NCBI GenBank assembly: GCA_013151055.1
Contig: JAADIZ010000144.1
Location: forward strand, 1-32,142
Origin: Campylobacterota bacterium
Lineage (GTDB): Bacteria; Campylobacterota; Campylobacteria; Campylobacterales; Sulfurospirillaceae
Direction: 5' to 3'
Length of the DNA: 32,142 nucleotides
This document shows positions 21,119-29,011 of the stretch, one piece after another (the first letter of the stretch is position 1; each line of letters begins with the position of its first letter). The notes beneath the pieces are model-generated. The model was not told the origin of the DNA. It saw nothing but the letters and a program-made list of their open reading frames with translations, and searched no databases. Both the position numbers and the translations under genes were made by a program.

Positions 21119-21185
21119 AGCCCACTTTTAAAATTACTCAATTTTTAGGACTCTCAAAAAAGCCCTTTTGCTTTAGGAAAAAACT

Positions 21186-23066
21186 TTGTTTTTATTTGAC
21201 AATTTGTCTATTTTATTTCTATTTTTAATAATACTTGGAGTCGTGCCAAATCTTTTTTATTCATTTGGATATTTGCCACACATAAGAAGAAAAGCATACT
21301 ACCTTATACACTATTTTGCTTTTATTATCTCTATGATGGGAGTTGTAATTGCAGGAAATGCACTTGTATTTCTTTTCTTTTGGGAGCTCATGAGCTTAAC
21401 ATCTTGGCAGCTTATTTTAACACAAATTGAGGATAAATCAACCATAAAAGCAGCTAGATTTTACTTTTTTATGACTCACTTTGGTTTTATGTTTTTGCTT
21501 CTTTTTTTCTTAATCGTAACAAATGGGGATTTAGATATTAGTTTTGCACAAATGAAAGTTATAACATCTAATTTTGCATATCCTACACTTCTGTTTTTCT
21601 TTGTTGTCTTAGGGCTTGCTAGTAAAGCTGGAGCAGTTCCTATGCATGTATGGCTTCCTTACGCTCATCCTGCGGCTCCTAGCCCTGTGTCGGCTTTAAT
21701 GAGTGGAATTATGCTTAAAGTGGCAATATACGGATTTTTTAGATTTATGTTTGACATCTTTGGCGTTTGGCAGTTAGAGTGGGGAATTTTTATACTAATT
21801 ATGGGTGCCATTTCTTCTTTAGTTGGTGTTTTATATGCACTAAGTGAACACGATATAAAGGCACTTCTAGCAAATCATTCCATAGAAAATATAGGCATAA
21901 TTTTTATAGGTTTTGGAATGGGTATGATATTTTCGTCTCTAAAACTTCCAGCTCTTAGTGCATTTGCTTTTATAGCTGCACTTTTTCACACATTTAATCA
22001 CATGAGTTTTAAATCTCTGCTTTTTATGGGTGCCGGAAGCGTGTTGCATGAGACAAGTACGAAAAATATGGAAAAATATGGTGGATTGATAAAAGCTATG
22101 CCTATAACTGCTTTTACTTTTCTTTTAGCTTCCATCAGTATATCGGCACTTCCGCCAACAAATGGGTTTTTGAGTGAATGGATGATATTTCAATCTTTGC
22201 TTGGCTCTGCTAATATAGATAATATTTCATTAAAACTTGCCATCCCCTTTTCTATTTTTGCTTTGGCATTAACTGGCGGTTTAGCTATCGCTTGTTTTGT
22301 GAAAGTATTTGGAATTACTTTTTTAGGACTTCACAGAAGTACAAATGCCAAACACGCTCATGAAGTAAATATACTTATGAAAATAGGCATGATTTTAATG
22401 AGTTTAGTAGTTGTTTCTTTGATGCTTTTTACTCCATTTTACATAAAGCTTTTTGATAGTACGATAAATGCTCTTATGAATATAAGTATATATGATAAAA
22501 TTATCCCAAATATATGGAGCTTGCACTCAATTTCCAATAATGGTGGAGTTGTATCGCCTCTGATTTTATTAGCTGGTTTGGTGGTATTAACACTTATTTT
22601 ATATATATTTTATAAATCATTAAATATAAAACATAGAATTTTTCACACTTGGGCATGTGGTTATAACACATCACCTGTTACACAGTATTCAGCTACTGGT
22701 TTTGCAGGTCCAATTAGAAGATTTTTTACTTGGCTGTATGACCCTGATATTCATTTTGAAAAAGAGGTAATTCTTGGACATAAAACTAAGTTTGTAGATG
22801 CTAGATTTAGTGTACATGTAAGACCACTATTTGAGCGGTCCCTTTACCAAAGTAGTATAAAATTGACAAATAAAATCAGTTATTATGTTTATCGTTTGGC
22901 ACATTTTGAACAAAGCAGATATGCAGCCATGATTTTCAATATGCTTTTATCAGTTTTGTTTAGCTACAGGATATTTGTACATGAATTTAGCTGGGCTACT
23001 CTAGTATTAGAGTCAGTTGTGATGATTATTTCCGTTAAAGTATTACTAGTAGGCGGAAAAGAATGA
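21186..23066 (+). CDS. HyfB-like (NuoL-type, antiporter-like) membrane subunit
   Basis: Multi-TM; VFLFFWELMSLTSWQLI, LASKAGAVPMHVWLPYAHPAAPSPVSALMSGIMLKVAIYGFFR, LFHTFNHMSFKSLLFMGAGSVLHE. TTG start with SD agga. Confidence 0.92.
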   Translation: MFLFDNLSILFLFLIILGVVPNLFYSFGYLPHIRRKAYYLIHYFAFIISMMGVVIAGNALVFLFFWELMSLTSWQLILTQIEDKSTIKAARFYFFMTHFGFMFLLLFFLIVTNGDLDISFAQMKVITSNFAYPTLLFFFVVLGLASKAGAVPMHVWLPYAHPAAPSPVSALMSGIMLKVAIYGFFRFMFDIFGVWQLEWGIFILIMGAISSLVGVLYALSEHDIKALLANHSIENIGIIFIGFGMGMIFSSLKLPALSAFAFIAALFHTFNHMSFKSLLFMGAGSVLHETSTKNMEKYGGLIKAMPITAFTFLLASISISALPPTNGFLSEWMIFQSLLGSANIDNISLKLAIPFSIFALALTGGLAIACFVKVFGITFLGLHRSTNAKHAHEVNILMKIGMILMSLVVVSLMLFTPFYIKLFDSTINALMNISIYDKIIPNIWSLHSISNNGGVVSPLILLAGLVVLTLILYIFYKSLNIKHRIFHTWACGYNTSPVTQYSATGFAGPIRRFFTWLYDPDIHFEKEVILGHKTKFVDARFSVHVRPLFERSLYQSSIKLTNKISYYVYRLAHFEQSRYAAMIFNMLLSVLFSYRIFVHEFSWATLVLESVVMIISVKVLLVGGKE

Positions 23067-23983
23067 TACTATATACCACTACAATTATTTTGATGATTGT
23101 GATTGCTCCACTGCTTCCTAGTTTTATGAAGATGGTAAAAATGACATTACTGTATAAAAAACCAATCTCTATCTTTCAAGGGTATAGAGATTTTTCGAAA
23201 CTTTTAAGTAAAGAGATTATCGTTTCAAAAGAGACGAGCTCCATCACTTCAATGGCTCCCTTTTTAGTTTTGTCACCACTTATACTGACTCTGTTCTTTT
23301 TGCCGCCGATTGTAAAGGGTGAATACTTTGTGAGCTTCATTGATGCTTTTACAATTACTGGACTAATTTCACTTTCGACTTTTTTTCTTATGATTTTGGG
23401 GCTTGATAGTGCGAGTAGTTTTGGTGGTCTTGGAAGCAGTCGCGAAGCTTTTATCTCAGCTTTAGCGGAGCCCGCCATGATTTTGACCGTATTTAGTGTT
23501 TCGCTGATGGCTGATAATCTTGGGGTTGGGCAAGCTAGTATAAATTTAAATAACCATTTTCCATTTGAACATATGGCTAGTTTTATATTTGCGGGAATTA
23601 GTTTTTTTATTTTATTGATTGCTGAAAATGGTAGAATTCCAGTTGACAATCCTGAGACTCATCTTGAATTGACAATGGTTCATGAGGCTATGATACTTGA
23701 TTTGAGCGGTTTTTATTTAATGCTAATAGAGAGTGCAAGTAGTATAAAGTTTATGATATTTTCCTCAATGTTTGCATCACTATTTATGCCTTTTGGCTTA
23801 CATCTCCCGATTATTTTGGGTGTATTGGTTTTTATCCTAAAGCTTTTTTTTATCGCTTTATTGGTTGCTTTATTGGAAGTGAATACTGCAAAATTAAGGC
23901 TTTTTAAAATTCCAAATTTGCTAGGAATTGCTATAGTATTTGCATTTTTATCATTGATCACATTTTATGTGTTAGGAGTGTAA
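23063..23983 (+). CDS. HyfC/HycD-like (NuoH-type) membrane subunit
   Basis: GYRDFSKLLSKEII...SSFGGLGSSREAFISALAEPAMI...AENGRIPVDNPETHLELTMVHEAMILDLSG. Confidence 0.94.
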   Translation: MILYTTTIILMIVIAPLLPSFMKMVKMTLLYKKPISIFQGYRDFSKLLSKEIIVSKETSSITSMAPFLVLSPLILTLFFLPPIVKGEYFVSFIDAFTITGLISLSTFFLMILGLDSASSFGGLGSSREAFISALAEPAMILTVFSVSLMADNLGVGQASINLNNHFPFEHMASFIFAGISFFILLIAENGRIPVDNPETHLELTMVHEAMILDLSGFYLMLIESASSIKFMIFSSMFASLFMPFGLHLPIILGVLVFILKLFFIALLVALLEVNTAKLRLFKIPNLLGIAIVFAFLSLITFYVLGV

Positions 23984-24583
23984 ATGACAAGTTTTTTAAT
24001 CGGCCTCTTTATCGCCACTCTTATAGTAGCACTCTTTACCATGAGGTTATATAGGCTTATACTTTGGTACTCTCTAAATTCCTTATCTTTGGCACTCTTA
24101 GCGATAACTATAGGATATAGTATAAATGACAATACGATGATATTGAGCGGATTTCTTACTCTTGTACTAAAAGCTATTTTGATTCCATATATATTGAAAA
24201 AAGTTAGTGTAAAATTTGGTTTATCAAGACAAATAAAACCAAATGTACAAATTCATTACTCAATTATGCTAATTCCTGCTTTATTGGTTTTTACATTTTA
24301 TTTGGCTGAGCCTATCACAAATATGATGGTATCAAATGCAAATTATGTTGCTATTAGTATTTCTGCTCTATTTTTATCACTACTTCTCATGATAGAGCAT
24401 AAAAATATAGCACCTAAAATCATAGGGTTTTTGACGATTGAAAATTCACTGTTTTTACTTGGAACAACAGCAACAGGCGGGATGCCTATGCTTATCGAGC
24501 TTGGTATATTTTTTGATTTATTGATGGCAATTGTCATCATAAATCTTCTTTTTCATCAAGAAGAAGAGGAGGGCTTAGAGTGA
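23984..24583 (+). CDS. HyfE-like membrane subunit
   Basis: Multi-TM protein in the HyfE position, with ILSGFLTLVLKAILIPYILKK and the C-terminal LLFHQEEEEGLE style of HyfE. Confidence 0.82.
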   Translation: MTSFLIGLFIATLIVALFTMRLYRLILWYSLNSLSLALLAITIGYSINDNTMILSGFLTLVLKAILIPYILKKVSVKFGLSRQIKPNVQIHYSIMLIPALLVFTFYLAEPITNMMVSNANYVAISISALFLSLLLMIEHKNIAPKIIGFLTIENSLFLLGTTATGGMPMLIELGIFFDLLMAIVIINLLFHQEEEEGLE

Positions 24584-25992
24584 TTTATCTTTTACTTTTG
24601 CCAGCGATTATCATGCTAATTTTATCATTTAGTAATATTGAAAAATCAAAGTATATTTTGCCTGTAACTTCACTGTTGATACTGTTTCCTTCTATAAAAT
24701 TATTTTTTCTTCCAAGGCCTTATAGCGTTATAGGAAAATATTTAGTCGCAGATGATTTAAGTGCATACATAATGCTAGTTTCTTCTATTGTAGCAATTTG
24801 TGTTACTCTAGCCATGAGCACTTTGGGTCTACATGTTAAGATAAGTAAAAAAGCATACTCAAGATTTTATCGTTTTTTTGCAATATTTTGGATAGGCTTG
24901 ACATTGTCAATTTTGGCAAACAATATGGGTTTGTACTGGATTGGACTAGAAACTGCAACTCTTAGCACAGTGTATATGATAAAAACAAATAATACTGCCA
25001 TGGCTAGAAAAGAAGCTTGGAATTATATGATAGTTGGTGCCATTGCAATTTCGCTTATACTTTTTGGAATCATTTTGATTTATGCAAGTGCTAAGCCGAT
25101 ACTAGGCGAAGACGCTATGATTTTTTCATCTTTATTAGAACATGCGAAAGAGATAAAATCACCATTTTTGTTTGAAATTGGTTTTGCTATTACAACTTTG
25201 GGAATGTTTATAAAGATGGGTTTTTTTCCTATGAATTTATGGCTAGCAAATATAGAACGAGCATCATTTTATCCCGTTGCTGCACTTTTTAGTGGTATTT
25301 TAGAAAGTGCAGTCATGATAGGCTTTTTTAGATTTAGTAAAATTGCACAAGCAGTTGATTTGCTACATGTGTTTATATTTGTTTTTATTTATACAATATT
25401 GACCATCTTTATCGTCTCTTTTTTGATATATCGTGCAAAAGATTTTATGCGACTTTTTTCACTCTCAGGAGTTGAGCACATGGCATTAATCGCACTTTTT
25501 TGGGCAAGTGGTGGTATCTTTGCTGCCCTTTTACATTTTGGGGCACATGCATTTTTAAAGCCAGCTCTATTTTTATCTACAGGTATTTTAGAGTCAAGTG
25601 GAAAATACAAAATAGCAGGCGCACTTAGAGGATATAGGGGAATTAAAGGAAAAATTTTCTATTTTTTAACTGCTCTATTTTTACTAAGTATTGTCTCTTT
25701 GCCACCAAGTCCTATGTTTTTTTCAGAATTGTATGGTTTTGCAGCCATGGTAAATATAGCTAAACTTCATCAACATTTATTATTAATGATTGGAGCCATA
25801 ATAATTTTATTGATTCTTCTTTCTATCATTTTTTATAAGTTTATAGAGATTTATCAATCCATGAAATATGAGGGAAAAGAAGAAACAAAAGTAGTATATG
25901 GCAATGAAGTTTTAGCACTTATCATATTTGCAATTTCGTTGATGGTTTTACTTACACCTTGGAGTTTTGAATTTTTAAGAGGGGTTTCGTAA
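24580..25992 (+). CDS. HyfF-like (NuoN/NuoM-type, antiporter-like) membrane subunit
   Basis: YWIGLETATLSTVYMI, GMFIKMGFFPMNLWLANIERASFYPVAALFSGILESAVMIGFFRF, LLHFGAHAFLKPALFLSTG. Confidence 0.92.
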   Translation: MIYLLLLPAIIMLILSFSNIEKSKYILPVTSLLILFPSIKLFFLPRPYSVIGKYLVADDLSAYIMLVSSIVAICVTLAMSTLGLHVKISKKAYSRFYRFFAIFWIGLTLSILANNMGLYWIGLETATLSTVYMIKTNNTAMARKEAWNYMIVGAIAISLILFGIILIYASAKPILGEDAMIFSSLLEHAKEIKSPFLFEIGFAITTLGMFIKMGFFPMNLWLANIERASFYPVAALFSGILESAVMIGFFRFSKIAQAVDLLHVFIFVFIYTILTIFIVSFLIYRAKDFMRLFSLSGVEHMALIALFWASGGIFAALLHFGAHAFLKPALFLSTGILESSGKYKIAGALRGYRGIKGKIFYFLTALFLLSIVSLPPSPMFFSELYGFAAMVNIAKLHQHLLLMIGAIIILLILLSIIFYKFIEIYQSMKYEGKEETKVVYGNEVLALIIFAISLMVLLTPWSFEFLRGVS

Positions 25993-26307
25993 ATGAGAGA
26001 AGATAGATTTTTTCATTTTAAAGATAAAACTTTGGTTTTAAATGTTTTAGGAACACCATCTGCCAAAGTTGATAAGATAGGAAAAGTAAGAGGAAATCAA
26101 CTAAAAATTGCTATAAAAGCAGCCGCAGAAAATGGAAAAGCTACAGAATACATGATAAAATTTTTAGCCAAAGAGTTTGGAGTAAAAAAAGCAGATATTA
26201 GTTTGACTTTTGGTTTGACTAGTGTAAATAAGCAGTTTAAAATTATAAATCCAACAAAATTGCCAAAAGTAATAAGTGAATATATAGATAAAGAAGATGA
26301 GTTATGA
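25993..26307 (+). CDS. DUF167 (YggU-like) family protein
   Basis: LVLNVLGTPSAKVDKIGKVRGNQLKIAIKAAAENGKATEYMIKFLAKEFGVKKADISLTFGLTSVNKQFKI matches the YggU/DUF167 pattern (G-x-x-V-K-V-A-I-x-A-P-P-x-x-G-K-A-N...FLAKxxxV...G...R-x-K). Confidence 0.85.
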   Translation: MREDRFFHFKDKTLVLNVLGTPSAKVDKIGKVRGNQLKIAIKAAAENGKATEYMIKFLAKEFGVKKADISLTFGLTSVNKQFKIINPTKLPKVISEYIDKEDEL

Positions 26308-27677
26308 GAGCACAAAGATTAATAGCAAGATTTGCCATCGAAAATAGTGATAATTTTGAAATAGTTACGGTTTTTGATGATGAAATACAAAGAGAAATGC
26401 TAGATAAAGATGAGCCTATTTTAAAATCAATCTCTTCAAAATATACAATTGCAACTTGGTTTGAAAGAAAGATAAAAGATGATTTTGGTATAAAAATAGA
26501 AGGTGCATATGACAATAGACCTCTTGTGCATCATGAAAGGTTTCCAAATATTTATCCAATGCGAAAAGAGTTTGTCGAAAAAGATATAGAATTTAGAGAA
26601 TTCAAACCATACAAATACGAAACAGTAGGTGGAGAGGGTGTTTTTGAAGTAGCTGTGGGTCCTATCCATGCAGGTATAATCGAACCAGGTCATTTCCATT
26701 TTTCTCAAGAGGGAGAGAGAATGCTTCACCTCGAAGTTAGGCATTTTTATACATACAGAGGCATAGAAAAAACTCTTGAGGGAAAAAATTTGCTTGAGGC
26801 AAAAGAGATAATTGAGAGGATAAGCGGAAACGAAAGCATAGCTTATCAATTAGCTTGGTTTGATATCGTAAAGCAAGCTAGTGATTTGAAATATGATGAA
26901 AAACTGAAAAAATATCACTGTTTACTTCTGGAATTAGAGAGAATTATACACCATCTCACTGATATGGGTTTTATGCCAAATGATGCAGGATTTGGAGCAG
27001 CTCTATCTTTTGCATCTAAGCTGTCTGAAGATACAAGAGTGCTTTTGCAAGAATTAAGCGGGCATAGGTTTGGATTTGGAAGTGTTGGATTTGAAGTTAA
27101 AAAGTATGATAAACAAAAGATTTTAAATTTTTTAAATACTTTAGAAAAAAAAGTAAGATGGTTTGAAGATTGGATTATTGATATTCCTTCTTTATGGGAT
27201 AGATTTGATTTTACAGGTATTTTAAGTAAACAAAAAGCAAAAAGTTACTGTGTTTTAGGGGTTATAGCAAGATCAAGTGGTGAAAAAATAGATGCAAGAA
27301 ATAATGAATTTTACAAAAAACACGGTTTTGTATTGCAAAATGAATTGGTTGGCGATGTAGCTTCGAGATTTAAATTAAGAATAAAAGAGATATATAATTC
27401 TATTGGCTTGATTAGAAACTTTATTGATGGTTTTACAAAAATAGAAAAACCGATAAAATTTGATGACGCAGAGTATATGAGCTATGTTGAAAGCTCTATA
27501 GGCGAACTTTTTATGTTTATAAAACTTAAAAATGGTAAAATTGATAGATTTTATACAAGAGATGCAAGTTTTATAAATTGGCAAGCTCTTTATTTGATGA
27601 TGGAAAAAGATATAATTGCGGACTTTCCTTTGATAAATAAAAGTTGTGATTTGAGTTATGCAGGAAATGATTTATGA
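26304..27677 (+). CDS. HyfG-like large subunit (30-kDa plus 49-kDa fusion) lacking all NiFe-binding cysteines
   Basis: VGPIHAGIIEPGHFHFSQEGERMLHLEVRHFYTYRGIEKTLEGKN and RDASFINWQALYLMMEKDIIADFPLINKSCDLSYAGNDL align with hydrogenase/NuoD large subunits. The cysteine motifs are substituted. Confidence 0.92.
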   Translation: MRAQRLIARFAIENSDNFEIVTVFDDEIQREMLDKDEPILKSISSKYTIATWFERKIKDDFGIKIEGAYDNRPLVHHERFPNIYPMRKEFVEKDIEFREFKPYKYETVGGEGVFEVAVGPIHAGIIEPGHFHFSQEGERMLHLEVRHFYTYRGIEKTLEGKNLLEAKEIIERISGNESIAYQLAWFDIVKQASDLKYDEKLKKYHCLLLELERIIHHLTDMGFMPNDAGFGAALSFASKLSEDTRVLLQELSGHRFGFGSVGFEVKKYDKQKILNFLNTLEKKVRWFEDWIIDIPSLWDRFDFTGILSKQKAKSYCVLGVIARSSGEKIDARNNEFYKKHGFVLQNELVGDVASRFKLRIKEIYNSIGLIRNFIDGFTKIEKPIKFDDAEYMSYVESSIGELFMFIKLKNGKIDRFYTRDASFINWQALYLMMEKDIIADFPLINKSCDLSYAGNDL

Positions 27678-28183
27678 TAAAATTTTGGCAAGAAAGAGTA
27701 AAAAACCCAATTTCTACTAAAAACCTTGAATGTGACAGCAAACTAAAAGAGATTAAAAAAGAGTTAAAAAGTGTAATTGGCAAAAAATTTGCAGGAAGTT
27801 TGGCTATTAGAATGGTAAGTAGTGGAAGTTGCAATGCTTGCGAAGCTGAATGCAATGCACTTTCAAACCCATATTATAATTTAGAAAGACTTTGCATGCA
27901 TTTTGTTGCGAGCCCACGACATGCTGACATAATACTCTTAAGTGGTGTTGTAAGTGCAAATATGTATCATCATATACTAAATGTTTATCAGCAAATGCCA
28001 CAACCCGCATATATAGTAACTTTAGGAGATTGCCCACTTTTGCAAGGGGTTTTTCAAGAAAATTTTGCTATAAAAGGAGCTAAGTCATTAGGGCTACCGA
28101 TAGCATACCATATCAATGGATGTCCACCAAATCCTCAAGAAATTATCACTGGTTTACTTGAATTTTTAAAGAGTTTGGGCTAG
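27674..28183 (+). CDS. HyfI-like (NuoB-type) small [4Fe-4S] subunit
   Basis: SSGSCNACEAECNALSNPYYNLERL, VASPRHADIILLSGVV, TLGDCPLLQGVF, NGCPPNPQEIITGL. N2-cluster cysteines retained. Confidence 0.94.
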   Translation: MIKFWQERVKNPISTKNLECDSKLKEIKKELKSVIGKKFAGSLAIRMVSSGSCNACEAECNALSNPYYNLERLCMHFVASPRHADIILLSGVVSANMYHHILNVYQQMPQPAYIVTLGDCPLLQGVFQENFAIKGAKSLGLPIAYHINGCPPNPQEIITGLLEFLKSLG

Positions 28184-29011
28184 CTAGAGTATTTTATGTA
28201 AAGTAGTGGCTTTTCCCATCCATTTTCCCAGCTCTTCCCAATTTTCCTCTTTTATAATTTGTTTGCATTTGCCCAATTCTTTTTCAAAAAGTTCTATCGA
28301 ATTTAAGAGGTTTTTTCTATTTTGTTTAAAAACATCTGTCCACATGATAGGTGAAGATTTTGCAATTCTACTCATATCTCTAAATCCGCCACCAGCAAGC
28401 AATAGTATGCTTTTTGGCTCTTCTTCGCCCATGACGCTATTTGCTAGAGCATAACTTAGGGCATGCGGTAAATGAGAGATAAAAGAAGCATGTTTATCGT
28501 GTGCTATCGCATCCATAAATACTATCTTCATGCCAATATGAGAAAATATCTGAATAGCTCTGTTTTTATGGTCATCCCCTCGTTCGCTCATGTTGCACAA
28601 TACCACAACTTTGTCATGATATAAATTTTCTATGGCCGCACTTGGACCGAATTTTTCCGTTCCAGCCATCGGGTGAGCTGGGATAAAATTTTCCCTTATC
28701 TCTTTTGGAACACTTTTGATGATTTTCTCTTTCGTGCTTCCTAGATCAACAATTGTCGTAGTTTTTGGAATATCAGTTAAATTTTGCAGTACACTTATGA
28801 TGGCTTCAACAGGAATTGCCAAAAAAATCATATCACATTTTTTGATTTCATTAAATGTGACAATTTCATCAACTAAATCTAGTTTTATCGCTTCTTCGCA
28901 ATGTGATAAATTGTGATCAAACCCACAAATCTTAGATACAAATTTTATATGTTTAAGTCCAAGTCCCAAGGAGCCGCCCATAAGACCTAATCCAATTATT
29001 CCTATCTTCAT
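28184..29011 (-). CDS. tyrA: Prephenate dehydrogenase
   Basis: IGIIGLGLMGGSLGLGLK Rossmann motif, FIPAHPMAGTEKFGPSAA, SHLPHALSYALANSV, GGGFRDMSRIAKSSPIMWTDVF. Confidence 0.94.
   Translation of the reverse strand: MKIGIIGLGLMGGSLGLGLKHIKFVSKICGFDHNLSHCEEAIKLDLVDEIVTFNEIKKCDMIFLAIPVEAIISVLQNLTDIPKTTTIVDLGSTKEKIIKSVPKEIRENFIPAHPMAGTEKFGPSAAIENLYHDKVVVLCNMSERGDDHKNRAIQIFSHIGMKIVFMDAIAHDKHASFISHLPHALSYALANSVMGEEEPKSILLLAGGGFRDMSRIAKSSPIMWTDVFKQNRKNLLNSIELFEKELGKCKQIIKEENWEELGKWMGKATTLHKIL

Follow-up and report, generated by a model that had tools for sequence, protein, structure and literature searches.

A compact hydrogenase-like operon

The window, by which we mean the whole 32,142 nucleotide stretch of DNA analysed here, contains a compact operon (21186-28183) with the order B-C-E-F-(DUF167)-G-I, in which neighbouring genes abut or share 4 bases; a gene on the opposite strand (28184-29011) abuts the 3' end of I. 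Its protein encoding genes are as follows.

21186..23066, + strand: subunit B, HyfB/NuoL-like antiporter subunit (626 aa, TTG start; NCBIfam hydrogenase 4 subunit B, E=2.9e-173)
23063..23983, + strand: subunit C, HyfC/NuoH-like (306 aa; Pfam NADHdh, E=5.8e-30)
23984..24583, + strand: subunit E, HyfE-like (199 aa; NCBIfam PRK11492, E=2.6e-14)
24580..25992, + strand: subunit F, HyfF/NuoN-like antiporter subunit (470 aa; NCBIfam hydrogenase 4 subunit F, E=2e-50)
25993..26307, + strand: DUF167/YggU protein, between F and G (104 aa; Pfam DUF167, E=7.9e-20)
26304..27677, + strand: subunit G, Cys-less large subunit with NuoC- and NuoD-like domains (457 aa)
27674..28183, + strand: subunit I, HycG/NuoB-like small subunit (169 aa; Pfam Oxidored_q6, E=4e-22)

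The DUF167/YggU gene, which sits in translational coupling between F and G, was recognised in the operons of the window's close relatives only. None of HyfA, HyfD, HyfH, HycH or HycI is encoded in the window operon, and a ferredoxin-like entry subunit (HycF/HyfH) is absent from the gene order of the window and of about 30 relatives. Alignment with 31 orthologues, NuoL, HyfB and HycC reveals that B starts ~73 residues, or two helices, later than HyfB, a short N-terminus found in nearly all members of the window's clade (clade A, see below), the few apparent exceptions resembling upstream-extended ORF calls. An upstream start that would recover the missing helices was rejected because of an in-frame TAG at 21174 and because most orthologues begin at the equivalent codon. 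In one genus, two genomes (one of them presumed S. autotrophica) carry two tandem full-length B copies and hence an additional antiporter subunit (L052:9200-13135, L073:3058-6840).

Subunit I holds the one [4Fe-4S] ligand set of the whole complex. Its ligands (C53, C56, C120, C150) are of the hydrogenase type, with C53xxC56 as in HycG, and the tandem-cysteine N2 ligands of NuoB are absent from it. All five cysteines of I, C60 included, are invariant in 32 of 32 sequences. Cys60 is specific to clade A and lies near the cluster ligands, at a position occupied by Ile in hydrogenases and by Met in NuoB.

No electron donor or acceptor gene is encoded near the operon, and no recurrent partner gene outside it was seen; most repeated 'neighbours' are antisense reading frames. 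Trk or CLC genes, recognised by eye, occur near a few clade A operons. Rfam elements, fluoride riboswitches included, were absent at the window operon and at ten clade A loci, and riboswitch control of the window operon was discarded for that reason.

A large subunit without nickel ligands

The G reading frame starts at ATG and has no internal stops. Two short stretches occupy the places of the hydrogenase ligand motifs.

26820..26840, + strand: codons of G residues 173-179 (ISGNESI), equivalent of hydrogenase VCGIC(G)
27648..27674, + strand: codons of G residues 449-457 (DLSYAGNDL), equivalent of DPCYSCTDR, with the stop codon directly after

A first-pass annotation of the window had claimed that all four Ni-Fe cysteines are lost from G and that DPCxxC is replaced by DLSYAGNDL, and in-register alignment with HycE, HyfG and NuoD bears out both statements: RVCGIC of HycE/HyfG reads RISGNE, DPCYSC reads DLSYAG, and HycE C241, C244, C531 and C534 correspond to G Ser174, Glu177, Ser451 and Gly454. 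The translated ORF has only the three cysteines named there (in YHCLL, SYCVL and KSCDL). In a single alignment, the four ligand positions are S, E/D, S and G in all 29 orthologues from other genomes, none of which has an internal stop; because these orthologues agree and are free of stops, the replacement is no sequencing accident, and a frameshift or assembly error masking CxxC pairs is ruled out. One relative's G gene (L008:5485-6854) is split over two frames (359 + 114 aa), reflecting a frameshift or an assembly error. Canonical HyfG proteins of the same phylum retain RVCGIC, DPCYSC and a C-terminal extension.

The absence of such an extension from G, also noted in the first pass, was upheld, but the protein does not end one residue after the motif as stated there; it ends three residues past the second ligand position, at the equivalent of HycE Arg537, which is the mature C-terminus after cleavage. 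The C-terminus of E. coli NuoCD aligns with this position too. The G gene thus encodes an already 'matured' C-terminal end.

The Pfam matches of G are confined to the 30 kDa and 49 kDa domains of complex I, with none to the nickel hydrogenase family. Among solved structures, G matches E. coli HycE best (7z0s_E, E = 8.7e-40, residues 32-455), and so does its predicted fold (TM 0.83, NuoCD next; AlphaFold mean pLDDT 80.8, loop 100-145 poor). MBS 6u8y_L matches weakly (E = 6.5e-4), ranked below HycE and complex I. The complex is unable to hold a [NiFe] site of known kind, and the earlier claim that it is not a hydrogenase is supported.

The first pass had also proposed searching the genome for maturation genes and other hydrogenases; HypD, one protease and other [NiFe] hydrogenases are present, and an inability of the host to mature hydrogenases was rejected on these grounds as the cause of the cysteine loss. 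The sole hydrogenase protease of this genome adjoins a group 1 hydrogenase. Two of its contigs (C139 and C51) carry two distinct NuoD genes, possibly from two complex I.

Conservation of channel, coupling and pocket residues

The antiporter residues (NuoL E144, K229, H334, H338, K342 and the TM12 Glu) are retained in 31 of 31 B and 32 of 32 F sequences, except that F lacks the TM8 Lys. Among the E-channel acids of C, the equivalents of NuoH E157 and D213 are retained in 30 of 30 sequences and E216 is E or Q. The structure of FHL assigns coupling to HycC C537 and HycE H188 and E193 (PMC9474812), whose equivalents are retained in every aligned clade A sequence. The coupling loops are intact in the window (G His122 and Glu127, B Cys491), and Cys491 is the retained counterpart of the ND3-loop cysteine that in FHL touches a loop of the large subunit (PMC9474812). 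Clade A G proteins retain the equivalents of HycE H188, E193, H284, E437 and canopy D529, with the canopy Arg/Lys changed to Ile/Leu in all of them and HycE D192 changed to Ile. The quinone ligands of NuoD, His38 and Tyr87 (Thermus numbering), are Ile126 and Gly175 in G.

Mean identity is 92.8% over G residues 436-457 and 88.2% over residues 112-134, versus 61.5% over the NuoD-like domain. The rebuilt pocket surpasses every other region examined in conservation and is under strong constraint, which speaks against a vestige and rules out pseudogene decay of G. In three genome pairs with both complexes, G identity is 54-59% for clade A versus 71-79% for Hyf, with B and C similar in both, indicating that the clade A large subunit as a whole is under less constraint and evolving faster than its Hyf counterpart.

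Distribution and relatedness

Orthologues (E < 1e-100) occur in 62 of 399 Campylobacterales genomes, representing 10 of 23 families (hand count). Nearly all loci read out have the order B-C-E-F-G-I, and the exceptions concern I: it lies ~5.5 kb downstream of G in genome G037, while in G223 a second, related Cys-less operon stands between G and I. In G373 the contig stops short of where the clade A I gene would stand. Because I is retained even when apart from G (G037, G223) and its cysteines are invariant, its cluster is probably used. At L039 and L040 a complete clade B operon lies directly behind the clade A G, and in L039 the clade A I gene comes after this operon and an amino-acid permease gene.

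ATP-citrate lyase (ACL, PF16114) scores above cut-off in 207 of 399 genomes and, fragments included, in 58 of 64 clade A genomes. By genus, clade A is found in 22 of 53 with ACL and in 0 of 34 others (hand tally; Fisher p = 2e-6, which ignores phylogeny), a link that may come from common ancestry or habitat.

Campylobacterota contain four Cys-less clades, A (that of the window), B, C and D, all of them without the Ni ligand set and all with the cluster cysteines of I retained. Clade B forms the tandem second operon, clade C includes, in L068, a fusion of I with a ferredoxin domain, and clade D has the gene order C-E-F-G-I-B. The window's genome has a second Cys-less operon, of clade D, on a 3.3 kb contig (C159, L071) whose upstream region is unassembled. 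Further Cys-less relatives are plasmid-borne, in Rhizobium, Paraburkholderia, Burkholderia and Meiothermus. In a maximum-likelihood tree (43 sequences, 450 columns, with the published Ehr reference proteins left out) all Cys-less proteins, including those of the four genera outside the phylum, fall into one clade beside HycE/HyfG. The split between Cys-less proteins and hydrogenases has a support of 98, some internal nodes have at most 85, and the pairing of clade D with Burkholderia has 64. Several independent losses of the cysteines are unsupported, since the Cys-less proteins form one clade, and the gathering of all Cys-less relatives there points to the known Ehr class (PMC6349859, PMC7304191) as the identity of the family. 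The class membership proposed in the first pass, which had also called for a phylogeny of the large subunit, is thereby supported. We conclude that the complex is almost certainly of Ehr type and no hydrogenase.

Fluoride riboswitches (RF01734) stand directly upstream of two clade D operons (L075:492-557, + strand; L078:8774-8839, - strand). On a B. cenocepacia plasmid (L117, NZ_CP073707) seven fluoride riboswitches surround a clade D operon, in the company of crcB, an inorganic diphosphatase gene and a chloride channel family gene.

The 'Hyc' hydrogenases of vent Campylobacterota

Several genome papers on vent Campylobacterota have built H2 or acid-resistance roles on this complex as an H2-evolving hydrogenase (PMC2628731, PMC4584964, PMC7952632, PMC10092268). 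A 'Hyc' group IV hydrogenase is reported for S. autotrophica (PMC4584964, PMC7952632), and the presumed genome of this species (G126) has one nickel-hydrogenase match, to group 1, and one clade A operon; because its sole nickel hydrogenase is of group 1, the reported 'Hyc' must be clade A if G126 is indeed S. autotrophica. The hydrogenases listed in the N. profundicola genome paper include a group 4 hyc (PMC2628731). Its locus (GAmH_0723-0718), interpolated between ech and coo, leads to the clade A operon of the presumed genome G062. A six-gene Hyc is listed for Nautilia PV-1 (PMC10092268), and a 2024 paper gives Hyf/Hyc as absent from Sulfurovum and Nitratifractor (PMC11406935). As far as these assignments hold, a new result is that the presumed S. 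autotrophica and N. profundicola genomes contain the Cys-less complex where the papers list group 4 'Hyc'. Its sequences in these two genomes are unable to bind nickel in the manner known from hydrogenases.

Possible functions of the complex

The best explanation of these features is that the six-subunit Ehr complex is an FHL-2/Hyf-type machine whose [NiFe] site was lost and then rebuilt. Three further aspects of it are new. It is pared down to one [4Fe-4S] site, with no ferredoxin subunit and a B short of two helices; its G, faster-evolving than that of Hyf, nevertheless has a pocket that is ~90% identical, and the complex retains its coupling and proton-channel residues; and clade A is confined to genera that carry ACL (rTCA autotrophs).

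Our preferred reading, which we hold tentatively and with some doubt, is that the complex couples proton translocation to a redox reaction other than that of H2 in the rebuilt pocket. A soluble low-potential carrier (ferredoxin or flavodoxin) would exchange electrons directly with the single cluster of I, and a non-H2 substrate would take up protons and electrons, or be oxidised, in the pocket that once held nickel. The charge moved at this site might then pass through the coupling loops and the E-channel to the two antiporter subunits and move protons. Such a machine could link the cell's ferredoxin or flavodoxin with the proton motive force in rTCA autotrophs, and, run in reverse, might supply CO2 fixation with low-potential carrier. 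The first pass had suggested another redox partner for the complex; no such partner emerged, although the invariance of the cluster cysteines in I suggests a redox function. The missing ferredoxin-like entry subunit, present in redox-active relatives, counts against this mechanism. The more specific proposal of a one-cluster complex I relative, in which proton translocation is coupled to an undescribed reaction with low-potential electrons for or from the rTCA cycle, and of which the vent 'Hyc' is an instance, is doubtful as a whole.

Another possibility, rather unlikely in our estimation, is that the complex is no redox enzyme any more and serves pH or ion homeostasis by gated exchange of protons, or of cations for protons, comparable to Mrp; G and I would form a structural or sensing cap in which the cluster reports redox state and the pocket relays protons. 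Loss of both the entry subunit and the active site would suit such a role, as would the lower identity of G in the paired genomes and the Trk or CLC genes seen close to some clade A operons. Cells acidify under fluoride stress, and riboswitches are commonly linked to Na+/H+ antiporters (PMC11139923); the riboswitches at clade D operons, within the same Cys-less clade, favour a function in ion or pH balance in some part of the wider clade, and, with the plasmid relatives in aerobic heterotrophs, suit a role in stress or ion handling no less than the redox mechanism. Against it stand the cluster cysteines, invariant in every clade and joined in clade A by Cys60, the absence of Rfam elements at the window and ten clade A loci, and the confinement of clade A to ACL-carrying genera.

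A complex I-like activity, in which menaquinone would occupy the place of the lost nickel site and the complex would serve as quinone reductase or quinol oxidase, is improbable. The fold and the NuoD-type C-terminal end are shared, and His122, the His and Glu equivalent to HycE 284 and 437, and canopy Asp449 are conserved. However, with the quinone His/Tyr gone and the canopy Arg/Lys replaced by Ile/Leu in all clade A proteins, a complex I-type quinone reaction is unlikely, and the cluster ligands of I are of the hydrogenase type rather than tandem-Cys.

Reduction of a sulfur compound (sulfane or polysulfide), as by the archaeal MBS complex, seems a shade less probable again. MBS is a solved non-hydrogenase relative with a match to G, and many hosts live in sulfidic vents (PMC4584964), but that match is weak and relatives occur in aerobic soil bacteria. 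A further point against a sulfur substrate is that MBS has ferredoxin-type subunits.

The reading of several vent genome papers, an H2-evolving group 4 hydrogenase (Hyc), is barely credible and, to the extent that sequence can decide, refuted, despite the kinship of the complex with HycE/HyfG, its hydrogenase-like gene order and the host's maturation machinery (HypD, one protease), given that the four ligands are replaced in every sequence, the C-terminal extension is absent, and HycF/HyfH, HycH and HycI are missing from the operon.

The same complex is widespread in vent and sulfidic Campylobacterota, in organisms that grow in culture, which opens the function of Ehr complexes to direct experiment. 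Should it pump protons in the way we prefer, it would stand out among redox-coupled members of the complex I superfamily for its simplicity, with one cluster and no ferredoxin subunit.

Comparison with known systems

Clade A shares with the established Ehr complexes its group-4-like large and small subunits, antiporter-type membrane subunits and absence of Ni-Fe ligands, and differs from them in having no ferredoxin-like subunit, a short B and an extra cysteine in I. A linked formate dehydrogenase has been proposed for the Ehr complex of Margulisbacteria (PMC6349859), whereas clade A has no linked dehydrogenase. FHL and hydrogenase-4 (HycE, HyfA-J) provide the best sequence and fold match of G, their B, E and F are matched by Hyf-like subunits, and the coupling residues are common to both; clade A is without their Ni ligands, C-terminal extension, HyfA, HyfD, HyfH, HycH and HycI. 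The canonical Hyf of Campylobacterota (L077, L086-L088, L118) occurs in the same phylum and partly in the same genomes (G037, G101, G289); it retains RVCGIC and DPCYSC, has an additional gene of ~178 aa between G and I, and has G as its most conserved subunit. Complex I (NuoB, CD, H, L/M/N) has the same fold, E-channel, antiporter residues and unprocessed NuoD-type C-terminal end, whereas clade A lacks its quinone ligands and NuoE/F/G/I and has cluster ligands of the hydrogenase pattern. The MBS of P. furiosus (6u8y) is likewise a non-hydrogenase machine of the complex I superfamily, weakly similar to G in sequence. From the Mrp antiporter (MrpA-G), which has no G or I homologues, clade A differs in that both subunits are present and retained.
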